In this document: positions 3,234-64,000 of the stretch, piece after piece
Position numbering within the stretch: the first letter of the stretch is position 1
Layout: every line of letters begins with the position of its first letter
DNA from: Sphagnum magellanicum
Lineage: Eukaryota > Streptophyta > Sphagnopsida > Sphagnales > Sphagnaceae
Assembly (NCBI GenBank): GCA_021904315.1
Contig: CM038924.1
Span: 12,822,026-12,886,025 of the forward strand
DNA: 64,000 nt
Direction of reading: 5' to 3'
Notes under the pieces: model-generated
Database searches by the model: none
Seen by the model: only the letters and a program-made list of their open reading frames with translations
What the model was told of the DNA's origin: nothing
Made by a program: the position numbers and the translations under genes

Positions 3234-6200
3234 TCACTTAAGCAAAGATCTTGCCAAATGTTCTTTTGCTGTTGCAAGTGCCTGTGATATGGTCTGCATC
3301 ATCACACAGGAACCCAACAAGAAGTTAAAACAAGACCATGAGTTCCTATATGGACTGTTGAAATATTGCAAGCGTTTCTGAAAACAGGACCGATTTGGTA
3401 TTTTTGTCTGCTCAACCAATTAAAGGCCCAAAGGTTGTACAGGATTCTGTGGTGATCCAGAAACTAATGCAACAGCCTACATTTGATTATTCAGCACTAA
3501 TGCATTCTGTGCACCCATCTGCCCTTCTTCAGGCTCCTCTCTCCTATTTATTAACATTCTCATTTAAGCTAAAAACAGGGAAACGACGGTGATCACAACC
3601 ACAGAAAATTTGAGTGATGCTATCACATTTACCTGCTCAGAGAGTGGGACATCTGCATCGGCACCACGCATTGCTACTCTGCTGGCTATAACATTTGCAT
3701 CTGACTCCAGTATTATCCTTCAGAAATCACAACCAAAATGTTTTAAGGCAGAAAAAAAGTGGCATCAACACCATATGAGATGCACATGATGGCTCTCCAT
3801 TATTGGAGAACATATATGACTGGAATGGAAAATAGTATAGCTCAGTATTGTAATCAGTGAAGCTGAAGGTTTATCATACTGCACTAATGAGTTTTAGACT
3901 GGAGTTTCAATATTCTGATTGACTTCTAGGGCTTCTGAAATCTTCCAATGTCAAACACATGTCCAATTGTTCCTATTAAATTTGGCAGGGGCCAACTTCT
4001 GTGAGTACCTTTTGACATATCTGTCAGCAAAATCCTGGATGGATCAAGGGCCCCATTTGAAGGGAACAAAAACACAGTAAAACACAAGGAGCAGTACTCT
4101 GGGCACCAGTGAGTCTTTCAAAGTGCACAGGTCGCACGTGCCCCGGACCTTGATAGTTTAGTGTTACTCATGGAATTGTATGTAGAATGACAAAACATTC
4201 AGAACCACTTCACTAGAAAAGACTTAAACTTTAGCTCCAGCTTGAATGTAGAAACAGGGTTTAACAAATTACCCGCCATCAACAAGCTCATCAAGGCATA
4301 GAAGAATTAAGTCCAAGTTCTCCAGCACAGTTTTCTTCTCCACATTGTTCCTGAGCAAATTGGGCACCCAAGAGCCAAATATAAATGTGATTTGAAATAA
4401 AAACTCCAAAAAAATATGTTAGGTAAACCAAGCAACTATTGTGCCAGTTCCAGCCAAATTTAAACAAATATAACAATCAGTGCAGTCATAGCTTTATGAA
4501 TGTCACTCACCAGACCATCACCTACGAATGGAATTGACTAGCTTCCATTACTCCTCACTGATTTCATCACCTCCCAACAGTGGGTGTAAATAAACATTTT
4601 ACATATCTATGAGGTTGCTTCACAACAACACTTTGAAGCTAACATGACACTGAGTGCAATCATAACCTTATGAGACTTGTTTCACAAAGTGTCAGACCAT
4701 TACCTTCATCACAAATAGCACTGACAAGCTACCATGACTAGTCACTAACTTCATCAGCTCCTGATGGAAGGTGTAGATAAGCAGATTATGGGAAATAAAG
4801 TTTCAAAAATCTGTGCCCCAAGTTCTCTTGAATTTCCAGAAGTGACAGGGACGCTCAGTCATCATACCGGCTAGCACTCAGCATACCTAATGAAAAATAA
4901 AATTGTGTCCTCATTCAAGATGCAACAAGCATGTGAACTAAAGGTTGATTTCAATTTATCTTGCCCTGTACAAGAATTGCAAGCATCTAAGCAAAGGTAA
5001 AATATTGCAAAACTTTAATAACTTTCATCCTCAAGATTGTTTAATGCAAGTAATTTGTTGCACTGTGCACAAATACCAAGTTAGCATTCTCCTCCAGTTT
5101 TGTGCAAACCTCAAGAATGATCTTCACAATCCATCCAAGACATGCAGCTAGCTAGTATGAATCAACCTATAAGTGGACGATCACCAATGTAGTCCATCTC
5201 ACCCAGAAAAGATGGGGAGCCAATGACATCTCTCAAGTGAGTTGAAATTAGGTGGCCACATCTGGCCTTGTCAACACTCAACCTAGTAAAGTGTTAGAGG
5301 CTCAACTAGAAAAGAGTGAGAAATACTGAACTTAAGCGAATGAACAAAGTTTCAGATTAAGGTCACACGACAAACCTGAGAAGAAGAGCTACGGCATCAA
5401 AAAAGCCCTGTAAAACTGTAGCCAAAATGAGCTCATTCTCATCTTCACCTCCCGATACATAAAAGTGAAGGTCAGAGACAAACTTGTAGACCACTATATA
5501 TCCATCAAACATCCCGATCTCAGCTGCATTGCAAAGCCACCACATGAATTGTGAACTGCCAGGGAGAAATCAAGAAATTTTCAATTCTCAGGGAAGCACA
5601 TAGCACACAGAACACTATAAAAGACTAACTAGAAACCACCTATGGTACAAAATCAGAATGTAAAATGTACTTTGCTGATACTGGTCAGACATGAAAACCA
5701 ACTTCCCTGCACAATTACAAAACAGCTGAAGATTGGCCGTCCCAATCCCAACATGGCTAAAGCACACAATACTTTAAACCTAAACTCTTCCTGGTCAAAT
5801 CCAGAATAGATCTCAGACCAGTAAGTTAGGGTTGAATTTTTCTACGAGGATCTAAACACTGGTTAAGCACTTAAAACAATAACAGCTTCCAGCGACCTTA
5901 CAAACTATGAACTCCAAATTTCAGACATTACAAAAGCAGAGACATGATTGTCTTTTAGAGCTTCAGTCCCAAATATGGATCCAGAGAGAGCAGCCTTCTG
6001 GACATCTCAAAAGATCAAGATCCCTTCTGAAGGTGGAGGCATGTAACAAATAGGTCATTTGAAAGGGGAAGTTTTACCTTCTGTCCGAGCACTTGTCTTT
6101 TGAGTCTTGGTGAACACGGACTTCTCAAAAGCCAGTTTGGCATTGAGAGTAGGCCAGTCGTCGGAAAAGTACTTCACAGCTACGCGCTTTCCTTCACCAT

Positions 6201-8880: not shown

Positions 8881-11800
8881 ATAACTATTGTTGTCACCAC
8901 ACATACAAAACATAACATGAAAATACCTTGAATGATATATCATGTCCAAACCAAAAATGGTTCTTCCACTTGTAATAAAAACACGAATCCAAACCCAACA
9001 TTTCCACACAACAAAAATGCAAAATTAACACTATGCACAAGAACACATAAAACCTTGCATATAATAGTAGAGTGTGCTAAAATATCAAATCACCAAAAAT
9101 GATTGAAATCAAACAAACAAAAATTATATTCCATTCACAAAATATCCCAAACCTTGTTCACAATTGAACTAATTCAAAATAAAAACCCAAACAATTAAAC
9201 TAACCTGATTTATCCCTAACTAATAAGGACATAATTAAATAACTAAACTAACACACTTGACATCTAATTGGGAATGAAACATGACTATATAATGCCATTG
9301 ATTATCAACTATAACACATTACAATGATAATCCAATAAGTCAATGTGTTTTGGAATGCTTGTAACTTGCTAACAACAAGTTGGTGATTGTTGTGTGTTCA
9401 AGTGGCTATATATTTTTTCAAGCTTTCAGTTTAATTAGATAACTAGATTTTGAACAATGTAACATGGTGGTGACAACTATTTCAACAAAGGAAGTTTTGT
9501 GGCTATTGAATGTGAAACATCATCGATTAGATTATGTTTTATATCATAATCACCAGTATTTCATGAAATGCAAAGCTACTTATATTACTCCAAAAAAATG
9601 CCATGAAATGCCTAGACACCTTGTTGAACGAATATGTTGGATTTGAATTTGTTAATGTTAAAACCGTGCTGCATTTTGAATTCATGCTAGTGTAATCTTT
9701 TGTTATAACTTGCTAGGGAATTGAAAACTTGATGTCTCTTATTTATCCAACACAAAACTATATCACAGATATTTGATATGTTTAGTTTCTAGGCCATAAT
9801 TTCATTTTTTTACAAAAAACTCAATAATAATGTAGCTTCTTGTATTTGAGTTGAAGAATTTGAGCTAGAAATTTGAAGTCAAAAGGTAAAATGACAGGGA
9901 AGTTTTATTTTTCAGCTTTATGATGGCATGAATTTGCCCTTCTTTCATTGGGTGGGTATAAGATTTAAATTTGTGAGATATTTATGATGGACACATATTG
10001 ATGATTCCATCAAGGAAGGTGCATGATTTTTTTTGGCTCCAATTAATGTTGGACGATGGGTGGACTTTTGATCATGTGGTGTCAAGATTAAGATGAAGCA
10101 TATTAAATGGTATAGACCATACCAAATATTGAAATTTGGTTTTGGTACAAGGCATTTGGTTTTAAGAAAACGGATTAGAATCTATCTTAGAGCTAGAAAT
10201 GGACAATGAAACATTAGCCTAAATTGGTATGAAGAAGAATATAACATTTAGTACAATTAAATGGTACACACATAGTGAGCATAAAGTTTTATACTCTTGA
10301 TGTAAGTGTTGCACATACCATTTGTTGAGTAGAAAACCAAGCACATATTGAATTGTTGTATACCTTGAAAAATTGTCACTGGAAATGATATCAACATTGA
10401 ATTCATTTTTGGAAAATCTTGTTATTCAATAGCAAATGAAACCTTGGGAGGGGGGACCCAAAATATTACAAACATAATTTGCCAAAGATGTTCAACTAGG
10501 CACAACATGTTCAAATGTATGATCTCTTGAAGTTTGGTCATCAGACAACATATTCATTAAGAAGCTTTTTAAAGAACACAATATCATGTACCTTAACTTT
10601 TACTTCCAATGCCCTTGTCATTTTAATTGGCCCAAGATTTTCACCAACAATCACTAATGTTGTTTTAACTAACACCTATCCATTTGAAATGATGAATCAG
10701 TCAAGTGATGTATTAATCCCTGTAAATTTCACCAATTTGCATACAACCTTGCTCTACAACTTTGATTATACATCTAATTTAGTACTTGAGTGTAATGAAT
10801 GCTTCTAAGGAGTCTTCATTGCTCCTATGAACTCTCTCTTCAGTCTCATGGTTGGCATAGGGATAAGAGTGATATGAACTTTTCTATTTGTGGATTCCTA
10901 ATAGATGGTGAAAATCTTGCTTCTTGGAGCTTGTTCACAAGTTGAATATTGAATGGAGTGAAAACATAGTTAAGTAGACTAATTACTGTACTTTTTTGGG
11001 TTGAATTATAAGTACTAAAAAATATATCATGAAGTTATCAAACATGTAATTTGGTTGGGTAAAAAGATTGAAATTAATATGGTTATTGATTTTATGTGAA
11101 AAAATATGATAAAAACATATTTAATCAAGAGTTAAATAAGATTATTATGAATGAAAGTAGGTGCAAGTAAATGTTTTATCTTATAAAAATAGGTGCAAGT
11201 AGATTAAAACGATGTCCAAATTTTTTTTTAAAAAAATGGGAGCCTTAAAATATACCATAGGTTTTGTGAAAACATGTAATTTAGAAAATTTGTTATATTT
11301 GGTTTTTGGAAATGAAATAAGTTTAAGACATTTAAATTTTTAATTTTCAAACACATTATTTACACACTTTTATGATGCAATTGCTTTTCATTCTTATGAT
11401 GTCAATTGAAGCTCCATGGTTTTACATTATGATAGGTGGAATTTTTGAGCTATTTTCATGTTTAAATGTGAAAATCACTACTTTTGAATTAAAGAAGACT
11501 ACTTTTGAGGTCTATTTGATTATGCTTTCACCCATGGGTCAAAACACCATTCCTTAATAATAGTTATTGAGATCTTACCTATGCTTGCACAATTTAAAAA
11601 ATCATTTAATGATAGAAACTATTGCTTGTTGTGTATAAGGGTGCATCCACAATAAAATGAACCACACCCAACTCCTTTGTTATTTTCATAAAGGCAAGGA
11701 CTTGAAATTGGAAACTAAGATGACATGCAACCATTGCACAAAATTTATGGTTTAATCACATATTTGACTTCTACAATATATTCTTATAATAAATTTTAGT

Positions 11801-12350
11801 TTTTTTGAATTTTACAACTTATCTTTATATTTATCCAAGAATTATTGGAAAGAAAATTACAAATTCTGAGTTTTACAATTCATTTATATATCAATTCCAA
11901 TAATGATCCAAACCATGTAAAGTCTAATAATTATTCAATCTACATGAGTATGAAAACTTTCCAAACAAATTTAGATTAATTTTGATCATTCTTATGTGAC
12001 TTACTCAAGGCCTTAGGATTGGTTACAAATGTTTAATTAGTCCCTTTCAACCTTCAAATGTTGATATAATTGATTCATATTTTTATATATCATTCTTGAA
12101 TGTTTATTACATCACACTATGTAGATTACATGAAAAAAATTAATTCTAAGTGAAGTTAAAAATTGACAAGTGTTTTATTCAAGAGTGGTTACACTTGTAG
12201 TGGTTCATTATATTGTAAACTTACCCATGCACAAAGAAAGAATTTGCAACAAATACAAAAGCATGGATCAAATCAATACCAACAATGGAATAGGTCCCAT
12301 AAAGCAATACTGAAAGCCTAATTATGAGCTTAAATGCATTTTTTTATCAT
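8881..12350. other. AT-rich spacer, no recognised gene
   Basis: Short open frames here (for example 9464-9646, 10515-10808, 11372-11557, all plus) show no known domain, and base composition matches non-coding DNA. It may contain unrecognised decayed transposon sequence. Confidence 0.45.
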
Positions 12351-12354
12351 ATCT

Positions 12355-13020
12355 TACTTACTTACTTACTTATTTACAATTTAGCGTCATTAAGTGGGCC
12401 AAACAGCGCCCGGGCCAGAGTCGAATTGATGTTAAGTCTGATGAAGCAATTCAGATCTAATCGTCTGACATTGCACTAAGAATCTAGCAAGGATGCCTTG
12501 CTGCTAACAACTCAGTAATTCAGCCAAAGGTGTGATGGCAGTTAATGGCAATGAACCTCTAAACCTCTCTCGAACATTTTGATAGGTAGGGCAAACCAAC
12601 AAGAAGTGGTCCTCATCCTCAACCGCACCCAAGTTGCACAATTTGCAGTAACGCTACTGCACCGACACCTTCACTGGCTTGACTTGCCTTCCTAGCTCAA
12701 TCTGTAGCTTGTGATTCGCACAACGAAAACATGCCAAGCTTCTCCTAAGTTGTGCATTGTCTACCCTAGAGAGGTATTCTTTGTACCCATACTGTGCTGA
12801 GCTATTCAACCCCAAATAGGCTCTCACCCTGTTGGAGTCAGCTGCAGCCACTTGATGGTGTACAATGTATTGCCTTTCAGCCAACTGCTCGAGGCGAACA
12901 CATGGTGGCAACTGATCGCTATCGATGCACAAATTGTACGTCGACAATCGTTCATCTACTTGTGCTAGCCAGCAAGCAGGCAATCGACTCTTTCTACCCC
13001 AGCACTTTGGTTCTCGAGTA
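12355..13020 (-). mobile_element. 3' fragment of a LINE-type (non-LTR) retrotransposon with tetranucleotide tail
   Basis: On the minus strand a frame (12654-12983, 109 aa) followed by readable sequence to about 12520 gives the C-terminal tail of a non-LTR reverse transcriptase polyprotein: LACFRCANHKLQIELGR, then a zinc-binding motif C-x2-C-x9-H-x4-C (RYCKLCNLGAVEDEDHFLLV followed by CP), then TYQNVRERF. A TAG at 12654-12656 interrupts the frame just before the zinc motif. The element ends in (TAAG)n repeats (12355-12375 as TTAC on the plus strand), as expected for LINEs with microsatellite tails. The reverse transcriptase core is absent, so this is a 5'-truncated, dead copy abutting the ligase-like fragments. 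Confidence 0.7.
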
Positions 13021-13021
13021 A

Positions 13022-14275
13022 AACTTTTCGCCTGGCTGCAAGCAATTGCAGTTGTACATCATAAGTTAGCCTAAGCAAAACCTTGTTATGGATGTGCAAA
13101 AAATTTGATAGAAAAATGCATTGCCCTTACACCATTGACTAGCAATGACAATGAAAGAAAGACCATGAATATGTAGAAATTCCTTTTCTTTTGTAGAAAA
13201 CAACCTATCCAAGCTCCTAAACCATTTTTCTAGCAACTTATTTGCCACATTGCCCACAATTGGGATGCCTAGTGCAACTATCAACTCCCACAATATTTTT
13301 TGTTTATTAACATGCATAAATGTGTTGTATTTTTGTTTTAAAAATCTACCTAAAGGTGGAATTTACATTAGTAATAAATGTGTATAAAAATTGAATGGGG
13401 CTCACTTGAATTGCCTTCACCATCTCATACATCTATAAAACTTGAATATAAATACCAAGAAAGGTTAACTTGGATTGCCTTCACCAATTTCTCAACACTT
13501 TTCTTTCCAAAGCCATCCAATTTTGATAAGACCTTACTAGTCAAAATGTAAAAATCAAAAGGATTAGTCACTAACCCTTCATCTTGAAATTGGTACAGGA
13601 TAGAGGGACCAAGGCCATGGATCAAACATTTGGCAAAATGTTCAATTTGCACATTCATTCATTGTCAAATCAATGTTAATGTAACTATAGTCTAAAAAGA
13701 GAGAGCACCAAGGAAAAAAGAGGGGGAAAAAAACGATAGTGAAGAAATTACTTGGTGAGGATGACGACCTAAACATTTTGAATTGTGACAATTTGTTACA
13801 TGTTTATTCTTACTTGTAGTCAGTTCCCCACCACACCATGGACACATACTTGGTGGCATCCACAATTGCACACATGCTTGCCTTAGTTCTTTTAAAAACT
13901 GTACCACTTGCAAAAATGAACACCAAATGTGAAGGTCTAAGTTGGAGACCTAGAAAGGAAATTGCAAGCAAAGACAACCTTTAGAGTTACAATACTATAT
14001 CAATCTAAATCATTTCATTCTCATGCAACTATTTAGTGCATTTAATGTTCCTTGTCCTTATTAAACACACAAATGAACACAAATATAGTTGAATCCAAAG
14101 CCTAATTAGATGAATAGAAGTAACTAATAAGAAAAGATATGGAATCAATATAGAACTAATAATTTTGAGAAATATTTTTTTCCAGAACCTTGTGTAAGAC
14201 TTACCATATCGAATGACATCACCAACACGTTGAATCAGAACATGGTCACCTTCACAAATGCCCATTTTTTATTGT
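13022..14275 (-). pseudogene. NAD+-dependent DNA ligase (bacterial LigA-type) fragments in exon-like blocks
   Basis: Four minus-strand blocks follow LigA domain order. Block 1 (14215-14275): OB-fold strand GDHVLIQRVGDVIR. Block 2 (13752-13906): zinc finger CPWCGGEL..., spacing C-x2-C-x14-C-x4-C as in LigA. Block 3 (13470-13658): first helix-hairpin-helix, IEHFAKCLIHGLG, DEGLVTNPFDFYILT, LDGFGKKSVEKLVKAI. Block 4 (13022-13290): LWELIVALGIPIVGNVANKL, GLSFIVIASQ, then in another frame FLSNFLHIHNKVLLRL. Blocks 1 and 2 join through a good intron (GTAAGTC donor, TTGCAAG acceptor) that keeps frame and yields GDVIRYVV. Damage: an apparent one-A loss in the A-run before block 1, two in-frame TGA codons just before block 3, no acceptor for block 4, and a frameshift near 13090-13110. 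The adenylation domain with KxDG and the BRCT domain were not found; a LINE fragment lies directly downstream and a hAT relic upstream. LigA seals DNA nicks using NAD+. Family assignment is firm; origin (bacterial, plastid-derived or viral) is unknown. Confidence 0.8.
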
Positions 14276-14284
14276 CTGCATACA

Positions 14285-14690
14285 CGCCTACAACAAACAA
14301 GTACTTAAGGGGGAATTGAACCCCAATCCTTGTAGGGATTTTGTTCACTGCAACTTGACAAAAACTACTTGCACCCAACCCCACATTTATAAATCAAATA
14401 ATCATAAGCAAATAATTTGAAAGTGCACTTGATGAGCAACAATAGTGTTACCACTATCAATAATCAATAAATGTTGGAAATCTAACAAGCCCAAAGTAGA
14501 AGTAAAAGGTAGAATCAACCATTGAAATTTTGCCATGTGGAAACCAAATATTTGCATTGTTATTTGATACAATGTTGGTATGAAACCAACAACATGAAGA
14601 ATTAATAGCAACCCGCATCTGAGCTACCATACCTTTAACTAGCAGCACATGTCCACTCCAAACTTAATCATGCACCCCATAGCACATCTG
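14285..14690. other. no recognised feature between ligase-like block 1 and the hAT relic
   Basis: I looked here on the minus strand for the upstream part of the ligase OB fold and found no match. Open frames at 14402-14648 (minus) have no recognisable domain. This may be intron or insertion-flanking sequence. Confidence 0.4.
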
Positions 14691-14699
14691 GTTGTCCTG

Positions 14700-15680
14700 T
14701 CAATCTTTCATTACTGCATAGAAAGGAAAGGTACCATAATCATAGAAATCTTGGGCATACATCCAAACAACTAAATCGAGGAGAATCATCAAGCGATTAC
14801 GCAACTTGGTCTTCATGAAAACAAGATTAGAGAATGTGCGTTCATCCTCCATAGAACCCAATACCATGACCATGCAAATTTGACCAACTTAAACCACTTT
14901 AAGAAATGGTTATTTAAAATTCTACTAAATCCAAGCCTCCCCCACAAGCGCACAATTGGGTTACAATCATGTGGGGAGGTGCTATTGCACCATTGTAATG
15001 GTTTTGCATTGTTAGTTTGAAAAAACAAGATTGTTGGTCAAGTAGAATAAGGTCTATCAATGACCTAGTCATGGTGCTAGGGTTCCCTAATGGTTTAGGG
15101 AGTTTAAAATGTGTTAATAGGATTGCCATGTGCTTTGAAACTGTAACCTTTACCTCTAAAGCTAGTCAGTATTGGGGATAAATCACACCAATAGCATTCA
15201 ACAATTCTTGTGTCAGAAATCGCTTTTTAAGTTCTATTATCAAACTTGTAGCAGTTGAAGCACATTGTGCCTTGATAGATTTTTCAACCTTTGCTCAAAC
15301 CTTTTTGGCCCATAACACCAATGATTAGATTTGTCCAATGGAGCATATACATTTGCGAACTAAATTTAAAGGCGACATATTGAACCTAAGAAATCTAGAT
15401 TCTGTGTAATGATCAACTAACTCAAAAAAAAAGTGGCATGGAGGCAGGAACCTAGTCCCAACATCACAATACATGTTGAAAACATCTGCTTCAGCTAGCT
15501 TCATAGTAGAAACAAAGTCATAGATTAAAATTTACAACCCTTGCACAAACTTTGATAATCTTTGCACTGTTTCCAGTAAGGGCATGATACATGCAAGACC
15601 TAGGAAGGTCTTTACATCACATAGAAGTTCATAATTAGCTTTAGCTATCTATGTAGCCACATTGTCATGAGCCATTTTTA
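14700..15680 (-). pseudogene. hAT transposase relic, C-terminal half (second hAT lineage)
   Basis: Minus-strand translation across several frames gives a plant hAT protein in order: ANYELLCDVKTFLGLACIMP and LLETVQRLSKFVQG (about 15520-15650), MKLAEADVFNMYCDVGTRF (about 15450-15510), AQCASTATSLIIELKKRFLT and QELLNAIGVIYPQY (about 15170-15280), MAILLTHFKLPKPLG (about 15085-15129), and the dimerisation block MEDERTFSNLVFMKTKLRNR (about 14790-14850) followed by LVVWMYAQDFYDYGTFPF, ending at a stop at 14700-14702. Multiple stops and frameshifts mark it as dead. The S(M/I)EDERTFS signature differs from the ERIFS type at 8 kb, so this is another lineage. Confidence 0.8.
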
Positions 15681-15684
15681 CAGG

Positions 15685-37747: not shown

Positions 37748-39458
37748 ATGGGCAATACATGCACAGGGTTGGTGACCAAGAGCTGGTATGCGCAAGCGTT
37801 CTCTAGCGCTTTTACAAGCTCTGCATTCCCAAAGCCAGCGGCTACTTCTCAAACATCACCAGACAACAACAATCACGAGCTGGACTCAGCTCCTCGTGAC
37901 AAGGTGCAACACTATCCTCCTGCTCCAAACTGTATACCAGCTTCTGTGCACACGAATCATGACCCTCAGCAGGTCAAAGAGGTTATTGATGTTACAATGA
38001 CAAAAGAGGGAGAGGCAATCAAATTTCCAGGGCACGACTTAACAGCCTCTGTACTACATCGTCACACAGAAAATGTCAAGGACTTTTACACCGTCGGAAG
38101 GAAACTGGGTCAAGGTCAGTTTGGGGTGACTGACCTGTGTGCTGAGAAATCCACTGGCAAGGAGTTTGCATGTAAATTGATTGCAAAAAGAAAACTTATC
38201 TCTATGGAAGATGTGGATGATGTGCAGCATGAGCTTTGCATCATGCACCATCTGTCAGGGCATCCTAATATTGTGACCATCAAGGGGCCATATGAGGATG
38301 TCACTTCAGTGCATCTAGTAATGGGGCTCTGTGCAGGAGGGGAACTTTTTGACCGGATCATCCAAAGAGGCCATTACTTTGAAACCAAAGCTGGAGAGCT
38401 GACACAGACTATTGTTGGGGTTATTGAGGCTTGTCACTCTCTTGGAGTTATGCACAGGGATTTGAAGCCAGAGAACTTTCTGTTCTCCAATCAAGGTGAA
38501 GACGCTGCTCTCAACACAACAGATTTTGGGTTATCTATCTTTTTCAAACCTGGTGAAATCTTCACAGGTGTGGTGGGGAGTCCATACTATGTTGCACCAG
38601 AGGTTTTGCAAAAAAATATGGGCCAGAAGCAGATGTGTGGAGTGCAGGAGTTATCCTCTACATTCAACTCAGTGGAGTTCCGCCATTTTGGGCTGAAACT
38701 GAGCAAGGGATTTTTGAGCAGGTTTTTGAAAAGTGAACTTGACTTTGTGTCAGATCCATGGCTGAAAATTGCAGAGAGTGCAAAGGACCTTCTTTGGAGA
38801 ACGTTGAACCCAAATGCTGCAAAGAGATTGAAAGCTCATCAAGTGTTGTGCCATCCTTGGATTTGTGAAGATGCAGTGGCTCCAGACAGGCCAAGTGATT
38901 CTGCAGTGCAGACCAGGCTCAAGAACTTCTCAGCGATGAACAAATTGAAGAAAATGGCAATCCGTGTGATTGCAGAATCTTTGTCCGAGGAAGAAATTGT
39001 AGGATTGAAGGAGATGTTCAAGTTGATGGACTCAGATGATTCTGGTTCCGTAAGCTTTGAGGGGCTGAATGAGGGGCTGAAGAAAGTAGGTTCAATTCTC
39101 ATGGAGGAAGACATATGTCAGCTGATGGATGCTGCAGATGTGGATCAGAATGGGACAATCGATTATGGAGAATTCTTGGCTGCAACTTTGAATCTAAACA
39201 AGATTGAGCGGGAGGAAAATCTTTTTACAGCATTTTCATGTAAAATTGGGTACCTCACAACAGATGAGCTGCAGCAAGCATGCACTGATTTCCACATGGG
39301 GGGTTATGTGTGTTGAGGATCTCATTTGTGAAGTTGACCAGGACAATGATGGGTGAATAGATTACAATGAATTTGTGACCATGATGCGCAAGGCCAATGG
39401 AGACATACATCGCAGCACCCACCACAGAAACTTGAGTGGGGATTCTCAGATGCTTTGA
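37748..39458 (+). pseudogene. CPK-like: intronless calcium-dependent protein kinase retrocopy, degenerate
   Basis: An open frame of 522 codons (37748-39316) begins MGNTC, a myristoylation/palmitoylation motif, then a ~75-residue variable region, a kinase domain, junction and EF-hands, all in one exon although plant CDPKs normally have several introns. Retained: GxGxFG loop, FACK lysine, [11 protein letters not shown]. Damage: (1) one base lost near 38611-38622 and one gained near 38723-38727 replace about 40 residues (288-328), so subdomain IX DVWSAG and PPFW are lost while the frame recovers; (2) the hinge reads VMGLC instead of VMELC; (3) EF1 loop position 12 is G instead of E; EF2 is intact; (4) a 12-nt in-frame deletion removes the EF3 loop core; (5) a frameshift near 39298-39310 ends the frame, and downstream the EF4 loop has CGA to TGA. 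The ancestral stop is recognisable at 39456-39458. No poly-A tail or flanking duplication was seen. It is clearly related to the kinase at 63.3 kb. Confidence 0.88.
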
Positions 39459-40885: not shown

Positions 40886-42247
40886 TCAACAGCTGTGTCT
40901 GCAAGTGCACAATCTAACCTGCAGCTCACTGAGGTGTTCTCTTAGTCGCTGAACTGTTTCCTGGATGCACCGGAATATTGGAAGCTCCTCGTCCTCAAAT
41001 TTGCTTGCAATACTGCAGCTTCTGATCTCCACCAGGCGTGCAATCTGATCTTTCAGTTCTGAGGCACAAGTCTCCACAAGTTTCAGCTCTTGGAATGCAA
41101 ACATGTAGCTCTTCTTAATAGGCTGACGTTGCTGTTCATCATCAGTGTGCTGTTCTCGACCCATTTCACCAATCTCATCATTCAGTTTCTGTTGCAGGCG
41201 CCTGAAAGACGGAAACCAGAGCTCCAGATCTCTAGTCCGTAACCAGTTTTCATTGCTGCTTATCGTGGCACTGGAAAGCAAGACTTGTGAGTACGATGCA
41301 GCAGAAGAGTTGAGAGCCCAGATAAGGACCCTTGCTAAGAAGTCAGTTGTCTCCTTTGTAGCTCGCATCACTCCAGTCAGTCCAACAAGCTTCTTGACAT
41401 GCCCAGTAATTGCAGCAGCAGGCTTCAAAGAAAGTGTCGACCGGATCTTTTCGTGGCTGAATTTCTCACTGATTGCCAGACTTGCATGGCGGGCAATTGA
41501 CATGGATTTCATCATTCCCGGCGAGCTTCGACTTGCCAACAACCTGGTCGTCTCCGATGCAGGTTTTTCGTCTTGGAAACGACTTGCCTTGAGAAACTTG
41601 GATGCAGCAGTAGGCAGCACTGGTGCAGCAGCACTACTACTACTACTTACCACCATCATCTTGCTCAGCTCTTCCTCACAGCTTTGGAGTGCAGCACGCA
41701 AGGTCATCAAGGCGGCGCCGGAGTCTCCACCACATGATCCGGCAGCAGCTGCTTCTGACGTCATAATACAGCATCTATTTGAAGCTTGCACCACGACCTG
41801 CACACACATCTGATATTGTTCGAAAAGAGAGACAGCAGGCTTCAGCACGTTGCAAACATCTAGAAGTTTCATGCTCTCGTCCATGTACTCCTCCACCCAT
41901 GAGGGATCAGATTCCTGCATGACGCCATGATGATGAGCAGCAGCAGCAGCAGCAGCAGACTCATTCTTATTATTATTATTATTGTCCTTGAGCTGCCCCT
42001 CCGACAACTGGCTCACGTCCAAGTATGTGGAGCGCATGAACTCGACCGCAAGAGCAATCCATTCCAAGCTCAGCCATTTGGATTGCAGGGATTGTTCCAG
42101 ATTCTCCAGCCTATTCGCCAGGCAAACATAGAAAGCTCCGAAGTTCCGATCAGAAATATGTCTATTATAGCCTAATTTGGGTCCCAGAGGTGGTCGACCC
42201 TGCTGCTGTCCTGTCAACGGTTTAAATCTTGCTGATGCCATCTCCAC
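40886..42247 (-). CDS. BYPASS1 (BPS1)-like protein, single exon
   Basis: A 453-aa intronless minus-strand gene. Residues about 30-70 (FGAFYVCLANRLENLEQSLQ, then WLSLEWIALAVEFMRSTYLDV) and 115-150 (SWVEEYMDESMKLLDVCNVL) match the conserved core of Arabidopsis BPS1 and relatives. A later helical part (about residues 300-453) includes LWFPSFRRLQQKLNDEIGEM and regularly spaced Leu, suggesting helical bundles. BPS1 limits production of a root-derived mobile signal that arrests shoots; for this homologue the role is inferred from family only. It is longer than BPS1 (about 350 aa), through low-complexity inserts: Asn5 and Ala7 runs encoded by ATT/CAG-type microsatellites at about 41935-41985, and a Ser5/Ala3 run. 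Start: either of two in-frame ATGs (42247, 42241) is possible. No frameshift is seen. Confidence 0.85.
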   Translation of the reverse strand: MEMASARFKPLTGQQQGRPPLGPKLGYNRHISDRNFGAFYVCLANRLENLEQSLQSKWLSLEWIALAVEFMRSTYLDVSQLSEGQLKDNNNNNKNESAAAAAAAHHHGVMQESDPSWVEEYMDESMKLLDVCNVLKPAVSLFEQYQMCVQVVVQASNRCCIMTSEAAAAGSCGGDSGAALMTLRAALQSCEEELSKMMVVSSSSSAAAPVLPTAASKFLKASRFQDEKPASETTRLLASRSSPGMMKSMSIARHASLAISEKFSHEKIRSTLSLKPAAAITGHVKKLVGLTGVMRATKETTDFLARVLIWALNSSAASYSQVLLSSATISSNENWLRTRDLELWFPSFRRLQQKLNDEIGEMGREQHTDDEQQRQPIKKSYMFAFQELKLVETCASELKDQIARLVEIRSCSIASKFEDEELPIFRCIQETVQRLREHLSELQVRLCTCRHSC

Positions 42248-45200
42248 AAGAGTCAGTCATTCACAAATTTTCTTCAACCCCCAGTTCAAGCACAAGAGCT
42301 GGCGAAGGAGCAACGCAGCCCTAATGGACAAAATTCCCTAATAACGAACAAAATTGGGCTTCTCCAAGTTCTATTCTGGATGATGGGTGGCTCATTATTG
42401 GAGAGATTGAGCTTTCATTTTTTTGGGGTTGTGTGTGGCTTCTTTAGACTTCCATTTTCTTCTCAAATGCTGGTTCGTTGGTTTTCACATCTAGGTTATT
42501 CTCGGTTCAATTCTGTGTGCCACAAGCAACAACTAGTTTTGACCAAAAATTCACAATTCTCGACTTGCACGCAAATTTAAGTGCAGAATTCTGCAAATCT
42601 ACTTCTTCCCATTCTTTCCAGAGTGTTCTTGAAGTAACGTGATTGCCAGCAAAAAAATAAGCGTGGATTGTATTCCGCAGTCTCAAATCAATTTACGTAT
42701 GGCGGAACAGGCAGGTCCAGACTGCCAGTGTCTTTTCTAAGAATTTTTGTTTGTAGCCAAAGTGGCCATCATCCATGGGAAGATGTACAAAATGTGGCAA
42801 TCATCCTCAGGAAGATTTAGCCAAATCTGGCTATAAAACCAGATATGAAGTTCAAAACTTTTTATTCATCCTTCTGTATCTTGGGCAACACACTCAAAAA
42901 CCAAATATAAAAACTACTAATTTTTTCCCTCACTTCAAAACCTCCAAAATCACTTCATTTTCGAATTATCAATTTCTCGTTTTGGTGAAATTTCGCCAAT
43001 TAAAAAAAAAGGCTGGGCAGGGCCTGTTCCACCCAGGATTATTTTTTTTCGTTTTTTGGCGAAATTTCCCACAAAAGGCTAAACACTCCATCAGGGTCAT
43101 AACAGATCCCTGTGAGGTGTGCAAGGTGTCTACGTGGTTCTATTGCAGGATTGACCAAATGTTGGTGAAGGTTTTTGTTAAATTAAAAAAGGCATTACAA
43201 TGGGGTCCTTTGAAGTAGGTTAGTGGTAAATAGTTGCTCCTGTATCAACCAGTGTTTTTATCCTGGCGAAATTTTGCTATTTATTGACAAAGAAATTGAG
43301 AAATTTTTGGATTTTCTTTTTCTAGTGTAAACTTGAGTAGTTTTTCTATTTTTAATTAAATTTCGCCAAAATTTTGATATTAAAAAAACAGTGATATCAA
43401 CTTGGTGCCAATTTCAAATTCAACTCCTGCATCACAATATAAATATTGTTTTTTTTTTGGGTTCTGTGGGAGAACATGAACGTGTGTTTTGCTTTGCACA
43501 ATAATTATGTGATTATGCAAAATCACACATGACAGTCCCAGCTAGGAAAAACTCTAAAAACGAAGAACAAAATAAGACACCACAACCCCGGTTAGTGTTG
43601 ACGCTACCACTGGAGTGGATGCCATTTCTATGGCACTTTCATGTTCTTGGGATTTGATAAGGGAGAGCCAGGAAATGATAATTCAAAAGCTAAAGAACTG
43701 GGACAAATGTGTTATTTCTATAACATTGTTTTGGAGGATTTTGGGGGCTTCATGAACTACAATATATCCCTTAGCTGAAGATATGTGTAAGGATTGTAGT
43801 AGTAAATGAGGATGGTTACCTTTGAATGTACACATTTACTTCAGGTGTCCGTTTTTGAAAGCAAACCTGTTTCACTCTATTTCACTCTATTTGGGCAATC
43901 CCCAAATATTTTACATTTGCTTATTCTCAACAAACGTAATGACTGTAGGTGTAGTTCCGTGTGTGGGCATTAGTAGTGACTTTGCTACATTCTTTCTCAG
44001 CTAGCAAAGGTAGAGGTGAAGTGTTGACAAGGGTGAATGCCATCTGTTGTGGCGTGTAGGTTCTGTGGAGTTATTTATCTAGTAGCTCAAGTAGATAGGA
44101 AATAATTTTCACAAACTTCCAACAATGTGCTTTTCTATCAAACACACAATCATCTACAGCCGCAACTTCTTTTGTCCAAATACTTTTGGATTCAAGTTTC
44201 TCAACGTATGAGACCCCAATGGCGTGCGTAATGTTGTAAGTGGGTGACCTTAGAATTTTAAGGCTTTATCCATCCATGGTGTTCAAAGAATTCCTTAAAG
44301 AACATTTGAAAAGGCAGGTGCAGCAGGTGCCAGGGAGATTGGAACATTACCAGTGCCCTTATCAACCAGTGGGGTCCTTTGAGAGACTAATTTTAAGGTA
44401 GTGAGTGTTTTGCTATCATTTACATTCACTTCTATATTCATCACTTCTGTACATGTTGGCTGTGGCTGTATTAACACTACAAAAATATAATACATTAATA
44501 AAATTCTGCCAGAAAATTATGGACAGAAATTTGTTAGAGGTTTAAATTGTCACCAATCCAGTAAAATAATTGAGTTATTAAATGAAGCCTCTAAAGATGG
44601 TCATCATATTCATATCCGACAAAAGCATGCCTGACATGTAGATTTAGATGGGAAGCAAATAACAAATCTTGGGGATCATACACCTAATTTTTGTGATGAT
44701 TTTAAGACAGTGGTCATGAGACGATTTTTGCAGCATTGTTTGGGTTTGGGATTGTATAACATGTGGGATAGTTATGAGCTTCTCAAGAATAGTTTGGTAT
44801 TGATATGCCAATCATTTCTGATAACTGTAAAATTATGGTAATATAAGAAAGTTCTGCATTCTTGTGGTTTAGGGTTGTATAATGTGAGATATGTGTTATT
44901 GTGGTTATAGCGTTGGCTCCCTGGTGTACATAACAGTGCTATGGAACAGAAATAATTTCTATAGAAATAGGGATTGAAGTGATGTGGGTAAAAAGAGTGG
45001 AGAGAATGCTTCGCGTACATGCCATTGCATGGAATTCAAAGGTTTGACTGAAGAATTATTTTTCATTGTGGCATTTCTATGAAAATAACTTTTGGAAATA
45101 TTACCACACTGAATTTCTTTCATTCTTGTATGTTAGACTGATGTAATTGTTAGAAAAGTTCACTACTAGAAAACTCCAAACGGGACTTCTAACATTTTAG

Positions 45201-60720: not shown

Positions 60721-60981
60721 TTTGAACCTTTGTTTGCCTCCCAAAAAATATGGATGTACTTGGAACTGGTGTTTTGAACCTGTGTTTTCCTCCAAAAAAA
60801 TATGAATGTACTTGGAACTGGTGTTTTGAACCTGTGTTTTCCCCCCAAAAAAATATGAACGTACTTGGAGCTGGTGTTTTGAACCTGTGTTTGCCCCCAA
60901 AACAATATGAATGTATTTGGAACTGGTGTTTTGAACCTGTGTTTACTCCCCAAAAAAATATTAATGTACTTGGAACTGGTG
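60721..60981. repeat. five-copy minisatellite, unit 51-53 bp
   Basis: Units at 60721, 60772, 60824, 60877 and 60929 each run TTTTGAACCTGTGTTT, a C-run, an A-run, ATGAATGTACTTGGAACTGGTG. Length changes fall in the C/A homopolymers. The array lies directly after a hAT-type right terminus (AACACTG ending at 60719). Frames across it on both strands are by-products of the repeat. Confidence 0.92.
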
Positions 60982-61011
60982 TTCATCAGTGGTTATTACA
61001 TATACCTGACT

Positions 61012-62405: not shown

Positions 62406-63294
62406 ATTAGGACCAAGTTGAGAAAGGAGCTTCACTAGGGAGAGTGCCGTAGTTCGAATTCCGGCAGACCGTCGGACCATTTGCATCGAAGGAGACGAAG
62501 AAGACGAAGCGGCAGAGCAGCACTGCAACGAAAAAACCCAGCCAGTCAGTCGGCGTTGCAGCAACAACAGAGAGGTTTCGTCAAAAAGAGCCGAGGAGCA
62601 AGAAGCAACGAAGCCAAGCAGCTTTTGTTTACACGAAGAGTAATGTGCGTTGGAGCTGCAACAACAAGTTTTCGATGCTGCGATAGGTCTCTGTGTGTAG
62701 CCTAGCACCAGAGCACCAGACTGACTTACTGACTGGAACTTTTTGGAAGCTGGGGTTTTGTTTCAAAGGCTCAAAACGAAAGGTAAGTGCACACACTCAA
62801 TTTTTATACTCTGTTGCTAAACTTTGTGCAACTTTCGGTTCTAGTGCTTCTGAAGGCTTGTTTCTCGACTTTCTTGCTTTTGAAGTGGGCACGGATTGTA
62901 GGTCAAGCTGAATAATATAGTTCAGGTATGGTTCTTTTATGACGCAATTTGCTGTTGCTGACCTAGATGAAACTTAGGAGGCAAAGGTGGGGTTTGAAGA
63001 GAGATGAGAACAGCTTGAGGATTAGAGATAAATGAGCGACGCTTGTTTCAGGGGCATTGAGTAAGAGCTGGTATTGCCGTCCTTTTGTAGGTCAATAGCA
63101 GGATCCGTCCACCCCCCCAACACCCTCAGCAAAGGTCAGACAAAGACGATAGTCGCTAGGAAGCGGAGGAGGAGGCTGAGTCAACACATCCAGCAAACAC
63201 AACCCCACGGCCTTTCTTGCTGCAATTTTCGAGATCCTTTCAGCGAGAACCCCAAAATCCTGGACTGCAGCAGGGGAAGGAAGATAGTGGAGCG
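62406..63294 (+). promoter_or_regulatory. 5' leader of the second CDPK, with probable 5' UTR intron
   Basis: A splice donor AAAG|GTAAGTG follows 62782 and an acceptor with pyrimidine tract CCTTTTGTAG ends at 63090, suggesting a 308-bp intron in the 5' UTR. An upstream open frame of 74 codons (63074-63298) overlaps the kinase start as ATGA and could lower translation if it is in the mature mRNA, although its ATG falls inside the proposed intron. The leader is much more GC-rich than the spacers. The transcription start was not fixed. Confidence 0.5.
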
Positions 63295-64000
63295 ATGAAC
63301 AATTACGGGTCTGAAACGAGGGTTTTGCGAGGCCAGAGCACAACGGCCTCAGTGCTGCAGCGGCATACAGAAAACCTGAGGGACTTGTACATCCTGGGGA
63401 GAAAATTGGGTCAAGGTCAGTTTGGGGTGACTTACCATTGTACTGAGAAAGCCACTGGATTGCAATTTGCATGTAAATCAATTGCCAAAAGGAAGCTTAT
63501 ATCTCCAGAAGATGTGGAGGATGTGCGTCGAGAGATTCACATCATGCACCATCTTTCCGGGCATCCTAATATTGTCACCATCAAGGGGGCTTATGAGGAT
63601 GCAACTTCAGTGCATCTAGTAATGGAGCTTTGTGCCGGGGGGGAGCTTTTTGACCGGATCATCCAAAGAGGCCATTATTCTGAAGCCAAAGCTGCAGAGT
63701 TGACACGTACTATAGTCGGTGTTGTTGAGACATGTCACTCTCTTGGAGTTATGCACAGGGATTTGAAGCCAGAGAACTTTCTGTTGGCCAACCAGAGAGA
63801 GGATGCACCTCTTAAGACGACAGATTTTGGGTTATCTGTGTTTTTCAAACCTGGTGATATCTTCACAGATGTGGTGGGAAGTCCATACTATGTTGCACCT
63901 GAGGTGTTGCGAAGACACTATGGCCCAGAAGCAGATGTCTGGAGTGCAGGAGTTATTCTTTACATCCTCCTTAGTGGAGTTCCTCCTTTCTGGGCAGAGA
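63295..64000 (+). CDS. CPK-like: calcium-dependent protein kinase, N-terminal 235 residues (runs off window)
   Basis: Ser/Thr kinase domain of a plant CDPK, about 85% identical in DNA to the retrocopy at 37.7 kb by eye. Visible: [12 protein letters not shown] loop, [11 protein letters not shown] lysine, [11 protein letters not shown], hinge [14 protein letters not shown], catalytic [15 protein letters not shown] (most CDPKs have ATDFG), activation/P+1 segment [12 protein letters not shown] and [20 protein letters not shown] at the window end. All key residues are present and there is no frameshift, so it looks functional as far as seen. The EF-hand half lies beyond the window. The start is the first in-frame ATG after a TAG at 63157-63159, giving a variable region of only about 17 residues (MNNYGSETR...) without the usual MGxxC acylation motif. 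No intron occurs in these 705 bases; many plant CDPKs have their first intron just after this point, so it cannot be judged as gene or retrocopy. Confidence 0.88.

Follow-up and report, generated by a model that had tools for sequence, protein, structure and literature searches.

A putative decayed duplicate of part of a complete, bacterial-type DNA ligase gene in the genome of the moss Sphagnum magellanicum

Introduction

NAD+-dependent DNA ligases (LigA) are described, in the passage on this family of a 2019 review, as identified only in eubacteria (PMC6728418). The relevant portion of another paper reports a sporadic occurrence in eukaryotes (PMC2806865). For plants, the ligase entry in the table of PMC4166229 is LIG1 only in every species, Physcomitrella included, and Physcomitrella LIG1 is predicted in the same part of that paper to be a plastid protein. 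The plastid ligase of Arabidopsis is called unclear in sections of PMC4166229 and PMC3914683, and the excerpted text of PMC6963530 names ATP-dependent ligases only for this species. Plant LigA is not mentioned in the excerpts of PMC3493329, PMC6981420, PMC7050145 and PMC11228847, and the matches listed from the open-access literature, a scope that leaves subscription papers and preprints mostly outside, included no recognised description of it. Plant LigA is a kind of ligase left out of general accounts of plant DNA repair.

Here we describe LigA-like fragments in Sphagnum magellanicum. Comparison with the rest of the genome indicates that a complete bacterial-type ligase gene lies elsewhere in the same genome and that the fragments are what remains of a partial, now decayed copy of it.

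Results

The analysed stretch of DNA (the window) comprises 64,000 nucleotides of contig CM038924.1 (C18:12822026-12886025), and same-genome searches covered 439 Mb in 31 contigs. An earlier note on the window had described four LigA-like blocks in LigA order. Translation of the window bore this out, with all four blocks on the minus strand, and the spacing C-x2-C-x14-C-x4-C was present in the translation of block 2 as described. The note had named a profile match to LigA domains as a check, and such a match above the Pfam cut-off was found for block 4 (Table 1). Block 3 (HHH_5, 16.7 bits, E 0.011) and the short block 1 (DNA_ligase_OB, 11.7 bits, E 0.25) remained under their cut-offs, and for block 2 Pfam gave two unrelated sub-threshold matches and none to a zinc-finger family. 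The Pfam OB model had no match across the whole genome, probably because the domain is divided among short exons. A phage DNA search with window positions 13022-14275 gave zero matches.

Chance likeness of the blocks to LigA is excluded by their collinear DNA identity with a complete gene. With blastn, window positions 14268-13078 matched contig C10 at 85.4% identity over 1197 bases, and a composite of the blocks matched four C10 exons at 67-76%. When searched against its own genome, this composite found 10 places, four in the window, four on C10 and two weak ones (E 0.75 and 5.68). The span originally assigned to the fragments, 13022..14275, does contain the homology; its edges required correction, since homologous DNA starts at 14268, the first stretch ends at 13078, and further pieces follow down to position 9600.

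A blastn comparison of the whole window with 24 kb around the C10 gene gave nine matches. Seven of them are collinear, run from window position 14268 to 9600 at 77-86% identity, and span exons 11-16 and the 3' flank, making the duplication directly visible. The same comparison revealed no remnants of exons 1-10 anywhere in the window. The window copy has no adenylation domain, and the adenylation model was convincing only on C10, where four of its six places in the genome scored above the cut-off, the two others having E values above 1. Separately, two short stretches within window positions 4509-4781 show 75-78% identity to sequence upstream of the C10 ligase (about 295-398 in the numbering of the C10 locus, L017), in the opposite relative orientation.

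Table 1. Remnants of the ligase gene and adjoining elements in the window. Positions count from the first letter of the window.
Feature	Position	Strand	Evidence and remarks
Repeat element cutting off the LigA copy on its 5' side	14266..15682	.	at least 43 genome matches including itself, from 40 of 48 candidates scored
Exon 11 remnant (3' part of OB fold), block 1	14205..14268	-	blastn to C10, alignment, weak Pfam OB; one-base insertion near end
Exon 12 remnant (Cys4 zinc finger), block 2	13752..13907	-	85.9% to C10 exon 12; acceptor AG to AA
Exon 13 remnant (first HhH), block 3	13470..13646	-	90.4%; acceptor AG to AA, no adjacent AG; HHH_5 under cut-off
Exon 14 remnant (HHH_2), block 4	13164..13311	-	84.5%; acceptor AG to AT; HHH_2 33.8 bits (Pfam cut-off 27)
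First insert, setting exon 14 apart from the remainder	12352..13077	.	726-base gap between collinear matches
Second insert	11639..12227	.	589-base gap between collinear matches
Exon 15 remnant, start (rest of HhH)	11534..11584	-	blastn, alignment; acceptor AG to AA
Third insert, within exon 15	10957..11533	.	577-base gap between collinear matches
Exon 15 remnant, further part (C10 8380-8606, L017 numbering)	10743..10956	-	deletions, two in-frame stops
Exon 16 remnant (BRCT end)	10492..10675	-	85.9%; acceptor AG retained; two bases deleted
LigA 3' flank	9600..10491	-	blastn 77-83%; three stretches: to 10000, 9990-9776, 9774-9600

The decay of the copy is likewise plain from the alignment. Identity to C10 is 79.5-90.4% in exons and 82.9-89.0% in introns, the lowest exon value being that of exon 11, whose first ten bases (14278-14269) are non-homologous and were forced into the alignment. 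The remainder of exon 15 and the start of the intron that follows are absent, and frameshifting indels are present. Four of the five ancestral splice acceptors are lost, only that of exon 16 being retained; the donors readable in the copy (exons 11-14) are GT in all four cases. Among 337 codons, 66 differ from C10 non-synonymously and 38 synonymously. Of the four stops counted, two are due to the ten forced bases and the one-base insertion, as are a few of the 66 non-synonymous codons; the pair in exon 15 is unaffected. Blocks 1 and 2 had been proposed to be joined in phase by an intron, and they do join, although the AG used lies one base past the ancestral acceptor, a shift that is offset by the one-base insertion upstream.

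The retained introns, an intact paralogue and disabling changes are the marks of an unprocessed (duplicated) pseudogene. A processed (retro) pseudogene was ruled out, since the introns are present and align at 83-89%. In both ligase copies the intron after exon 13 (L017 7751-7910; window 13312-13469, minus strand) holds a near-repeat of the last codons of the exon (VKAIQ), and this small duplication therefore predates the copying of the gene.

We also considered whether the window locus could be a working gene, encoding for example a small DNA-binding protein that combines the zinc finger with the HhH regions. In favour of this, the cysteines of the finger and extended portions of the blocks are retained, and the first intron still joins in phase. 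However, the acceptors of exons 13 and 14 are lost and have no neighbouring AG, exon 15 is broken and carries stops, the changed codons are mainly non-synonymous, and the introns are as close to C10 as the exons are. We therefore regard a working gene at this locus as very improbable.

The substitutions are strongly skewed. Taking C10 as the ancestral state, C/G to T/A changes affect 219 of 969 aligned C or G sites, compared with 30 of 1358 A or T sites for the reverse transition. This 7-fold asymmetry argues that the window copy, and not C10, is the one that changed. By context, the C/G to T/A rate is 92/208 at CHG, 12/34 at CG and 115/727 at CHH sites, and changes of this kind (CAG to CAA) underlie three of the four lost acceptors. 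Such a pattern would be expected from deamination at methylated cytosines. We infer that the window copy is a methylated, decaying pseudogene, its silencing and splicing being read off the sequence.

At the 5' edge of the copy, matches to the repeat element on C3, C6 and C14 stop at window position 14266; the C13 copy stops one base off, those on C15 and C2 fall 9-16 bases short of it, and another C6 copy extends 27 bases beyond. Since several repeat copies end at the LigA junction, the junction marks a terminus of the repeat. Either the repeat was inserted and the 5' half of the ligase copy was lost, or the ligase segment was captured beside the repeat (edge at 14268).

Some further features of the window may be recorded. 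The first insert contains a G+C-richer, 134-aa ORF (12654-13058, minus strand) with no Pfam match, which may resemble the zinc-binding tail of LINE-type reverse transcriptases. An uninterrupted 522-aa frame of calcium-dependent kinase type, with kinase and EF hands, lies at 37748-39316 (plus strand) and is possibly a retrocopy; a second protein-kinase frame of this type (63160-63999, plus strand) continues past the window end. A 456-aa ORF at 40886-42256 (minus strand) matches Pfam BPS1 with 23.7 bits (cut-off 23.5), and five copies of a 52-base tandem repeat occupy 60721-60983 with 88% matches.

A search of the host assembly for full-length copies, proposed in the earlier note, led to a complete LigA gene on the 18.3-Mb contig C10, at positions 3757253-3764059 of the plus strand (L017 2253-9059). 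The gene model has 16 exons, GT-AG boundaries in 15 of 15 introns and a single 1113-aa frame. Its putative start, the ATG at L017 2253, is the first in the long frame and matches the start of the S. compactum protein. The fragments that the note presented as the finding are truly LigA-derived, but they belong to a pseudogene of this complete gene, which the note had missed. Its reading of the fragments as LigA in a plant genome is in this sense partly supported.

The C10 protein exceeds the cut-offs of two NCBI LigA models (675 and 646 bits; cut-offs 369 and 444). The adenylation domain (PF01653) scores 236.6 bits against a cut-off of 27 and retains the equivalents of K115, D117, E173, K290 and K314, including the KxDG lysine. 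The NAD+-binding domain Ia stays under its cut-off (Nlig-Ia, 24.1 bits; cut-off 27), with the equivalents of Y22, H23, D32, Y35 and D36 all retained. OB fold (96.7 bits), HHH_2 (HhH; 63.1 bits) and BRCT (51.6 bits) each exceed the Pfam cut-off. The Pfam zinc-finger model has no match; the four cysteines of the Cys4 finger align with C408, C411, C426 and C432. At the catalytic, NAD+-binding and zinc positions checked, the C10 protein is identical to Klebsiella LigA in 21 of 21 cases. The best solved relative is the E. coli-type LigA of PDB 2owo (E 4e-127), which aligns with the core over query residues 10-608 and with the BRCT domain.

Ahead of the LigA core, the C10 protein carries an N-terminal extension of about 355 residues. 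Residues 1-30 are arginine-rich (9 R, 2 acidic residues, zero S/T), and the next 30 contain 10 S/T. The extension begins with MQR in Sphagnum and with MHR in liverworts, and MQR is found at an internal methionine in Physcomitrium. In its composition, the extension resembles organelle import signals. ATP-ligase domains are present in the genome as well (10 exon-level matches, spread over four contigs), and LigA is therefore an addition and not a replacement.

A database search with the C10 core required shared words and similar length, scored 8000 matches and listed 120, with about one quarter of the database being named. Among the 120 were 13 plant rows: Sphagnum compactum, three named Physcomitrium patens, two Riccia, two Marchantia, one labelled Mesen1 (apparently the alga Mesotaenium) and four unnamed. 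Three of the unnamed rows have the length of the Physcomitrium protein or are a piece of it, and one is moss-like. With the S. compactum protein the C10 core shares 97% identity, and with the Marchantia, Riccia and P. patens orthologues 50-61% over about 95% of its length. The earlier note had described LigA as known from bacteria and a few large DNA viruses; entries from plants are already in the databases, some of them named 'DNA ligase (NAD+)' or 'DNA ligase (NAD(+))'.

No name of a vascular plant, hornwort or fern was among the 120 matches listed, which is no more than suggestive of an absence of LigA from these groups. Three further short rows, 92-93% identical to the S. compactum protein, came from a profile search, which brought in no additional named plant. 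The full 1051-codon Physcomitrium frame is contained in contigs of at most 3482 bases, which would fit spliced transcripts if the Physcomitrium gene has introns. H23 is replaced by N in all three liverwort rows, and in Marchantia Y35 is also replaced, by F; two bacterial rows have Y at position 23. The Mesotaenium row is without the N-terminal part and 10 of the 21 checked positions.

These data also bear on bacterial contamination or an assembly chimera as the source of the ligase sequences. The family is chiefly bacterial. Against such a source stand the 15 GT-AG introns of the C10 gene within its long contig, the second intron-bearing copy on C18, and the orthologues in further mosses and in liverworts, and we consider the chance of contamination or chimerism negligible. 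The contention of the earlier note that the fragments are LigA-derived, intron-bearing and plant-nuclear, and not part of a bacterial chimera, agrees with these findings.

Trees were built in order to place the plant sequences, a quick one from 67 chosen rows and a careful one from 57, after removal of ten rows, some of them viral, that were long or redundant; five more, including Mesotaenium, were dropped for a third tree of 52 rows. In the 67-row tree, the eight plant rows form one clade (99) within a 28-row set with Chloroflexota and Actinomycetota (96). In the 57-row tree, the plants again form one clade (100/100), branching in organismal order, and a split unites them with eight Chloroflexota-side rows (94/98; 89/70 in the 52-row tree). 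Three of these eight rows are unnamed and two are identical, and Chloroflexota are split in the trees, with L021, L027, L041 and one unnamed row apart from the eight. A position of the plant clade beside some Chloroflexota rows thus has moderate support.

Of the three sources named in the earlier note, bacterial transfer is the best supported, a plastid ancestor was not recovered, and a virus found no support from the viral contigs sampled. An inheritance of the intact gene from the cyanobacterial plastid ancestor, instead of from a separate bacterial donor, is in our view unlikely, though it deserves to be kept in mind. The AU test retains the union of plants with the cyanobacteria-like rows (p 0.178), a group of three rows tentatively labelled by sequence motifs. 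However, the log-likelihood is 17 lower when the plants are held with these rows, and the free trees place the plants with Chloroflexota-side rows. Plasmid searches for cyanobacterial LigA returned no cyanobacterial name among the matches listed (60 of 220 and 15 of 220 records).

Arrival of LigA with an integrated large DNA virus would be in keeping with the NAD+ ligases that some such viruses carry, according to the relevant part of PMC2806865. The plants are nevertheless apart from the viral contigs sampled, and their union with two of these was rejected (p 0.033). The viral rows are contigs that are probably phage-like, and ligases known from large eukaryotic DNA viruses (named NCLDV) are not among them; a phage protein search covered the best 30 of 1209 records. 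Overall, a viral arrival appears highly unlikely. An alphaproteobacterial origin was rejected as well (p 0.0105 with plants held with alphaproteobacteria). Plant LigA is probably a bacterial gene and not one of the mitochondrial ancestor.

Discussion

We are highly confident in a joint account in which the blocks in the window are a decayed partial duplicate of the nuclear LigA gene on C10, and in which this parent gene is bacterially derived, vertically inherited and probably encodes a nick-sealing enzyme. A segment with at least exons 11-16 and the 3' flank of the C10 gene, introns included, would have been copied to its present place, where it adjoins the repeat element and where three inserts of 0.58-0.73 kb break it up. 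The copy would then have decayed, mainly by C-to-T changes in plant methylation contexts, with the loss of most splice acceptors, and should be able to make no ligase.

The C10 protein would most likely have its lysine adenylated from NAD+, pass AMP to the 5' phosphate and close the nick. It may act in plastids and/or mitochondria, beside ATP-dependent ligases. Given the plastid prediction for moss LIG1 in the consulted part of PMC4166229, LigA need not be the plastid ligase. The gene was presumably acquired from a bacterial donor, perhaps one on the Chloroflexota side, and would have been passed down vertically within bryophytes, probably from the time they split from Mesotaenium. Uptake may thus have preceded the bryophytes and, if the Mesotaenium row holds, the parting from Zygnematophyceae.

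A wider reading is possible, although we lean against it, in part because of the plastid prediction for moss LIG1 and the divided placement of the Chloroflexota in the trees: bryophytes and their algal relatives may use a Chloroflexota-side LigA as an organellar ligase, and vascular plants may have lost LigA and rely on ATP ligases. If true, land plants would have an unrecognised second type of DNA ligase, with a donor outside the plastid and mitochondrial ancestors. Since Physcomitrium and Marchantia, both model bryophytes, share a conserved nuclear LigA, the plastid-ligase question can be tested directly. Taken by itself, the window copy is a pseudogene of an ordinary kind; read against its intact parent, it offers a clear record of methylation-type decay.

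The C10 protein agrees with bacterial LigA (E. coli, 2owo) in its order of domains and in its residues at all 21 positions checked. It differs in being encoded by a nuclear gene with 15 introns and in its long N-terminal extension, and the window copy differs further in having no catalytic half. The plant ATP ligases LIG1, LIG4 and LIG6 also join DNA nicks, but LigA belongs to another family and uses another cofactor. The NAD+ ligases of large eukaryotic DNA viruses, as presented in the relevant part of PMC2806865, are of the same family and occur in a eukaryotic setting; the plants did not group with the viral contigs sampled, which are probably phage-like. Further counterparts are the Marchantia and Riccia proteins named 'DNA ligase (NAD+)' and the 'uncharacterized protein' of Physcomitrium patens; the C10 gene is their orthologue, and the window copy is a dead duplicate of the Sphagnum-type gene.
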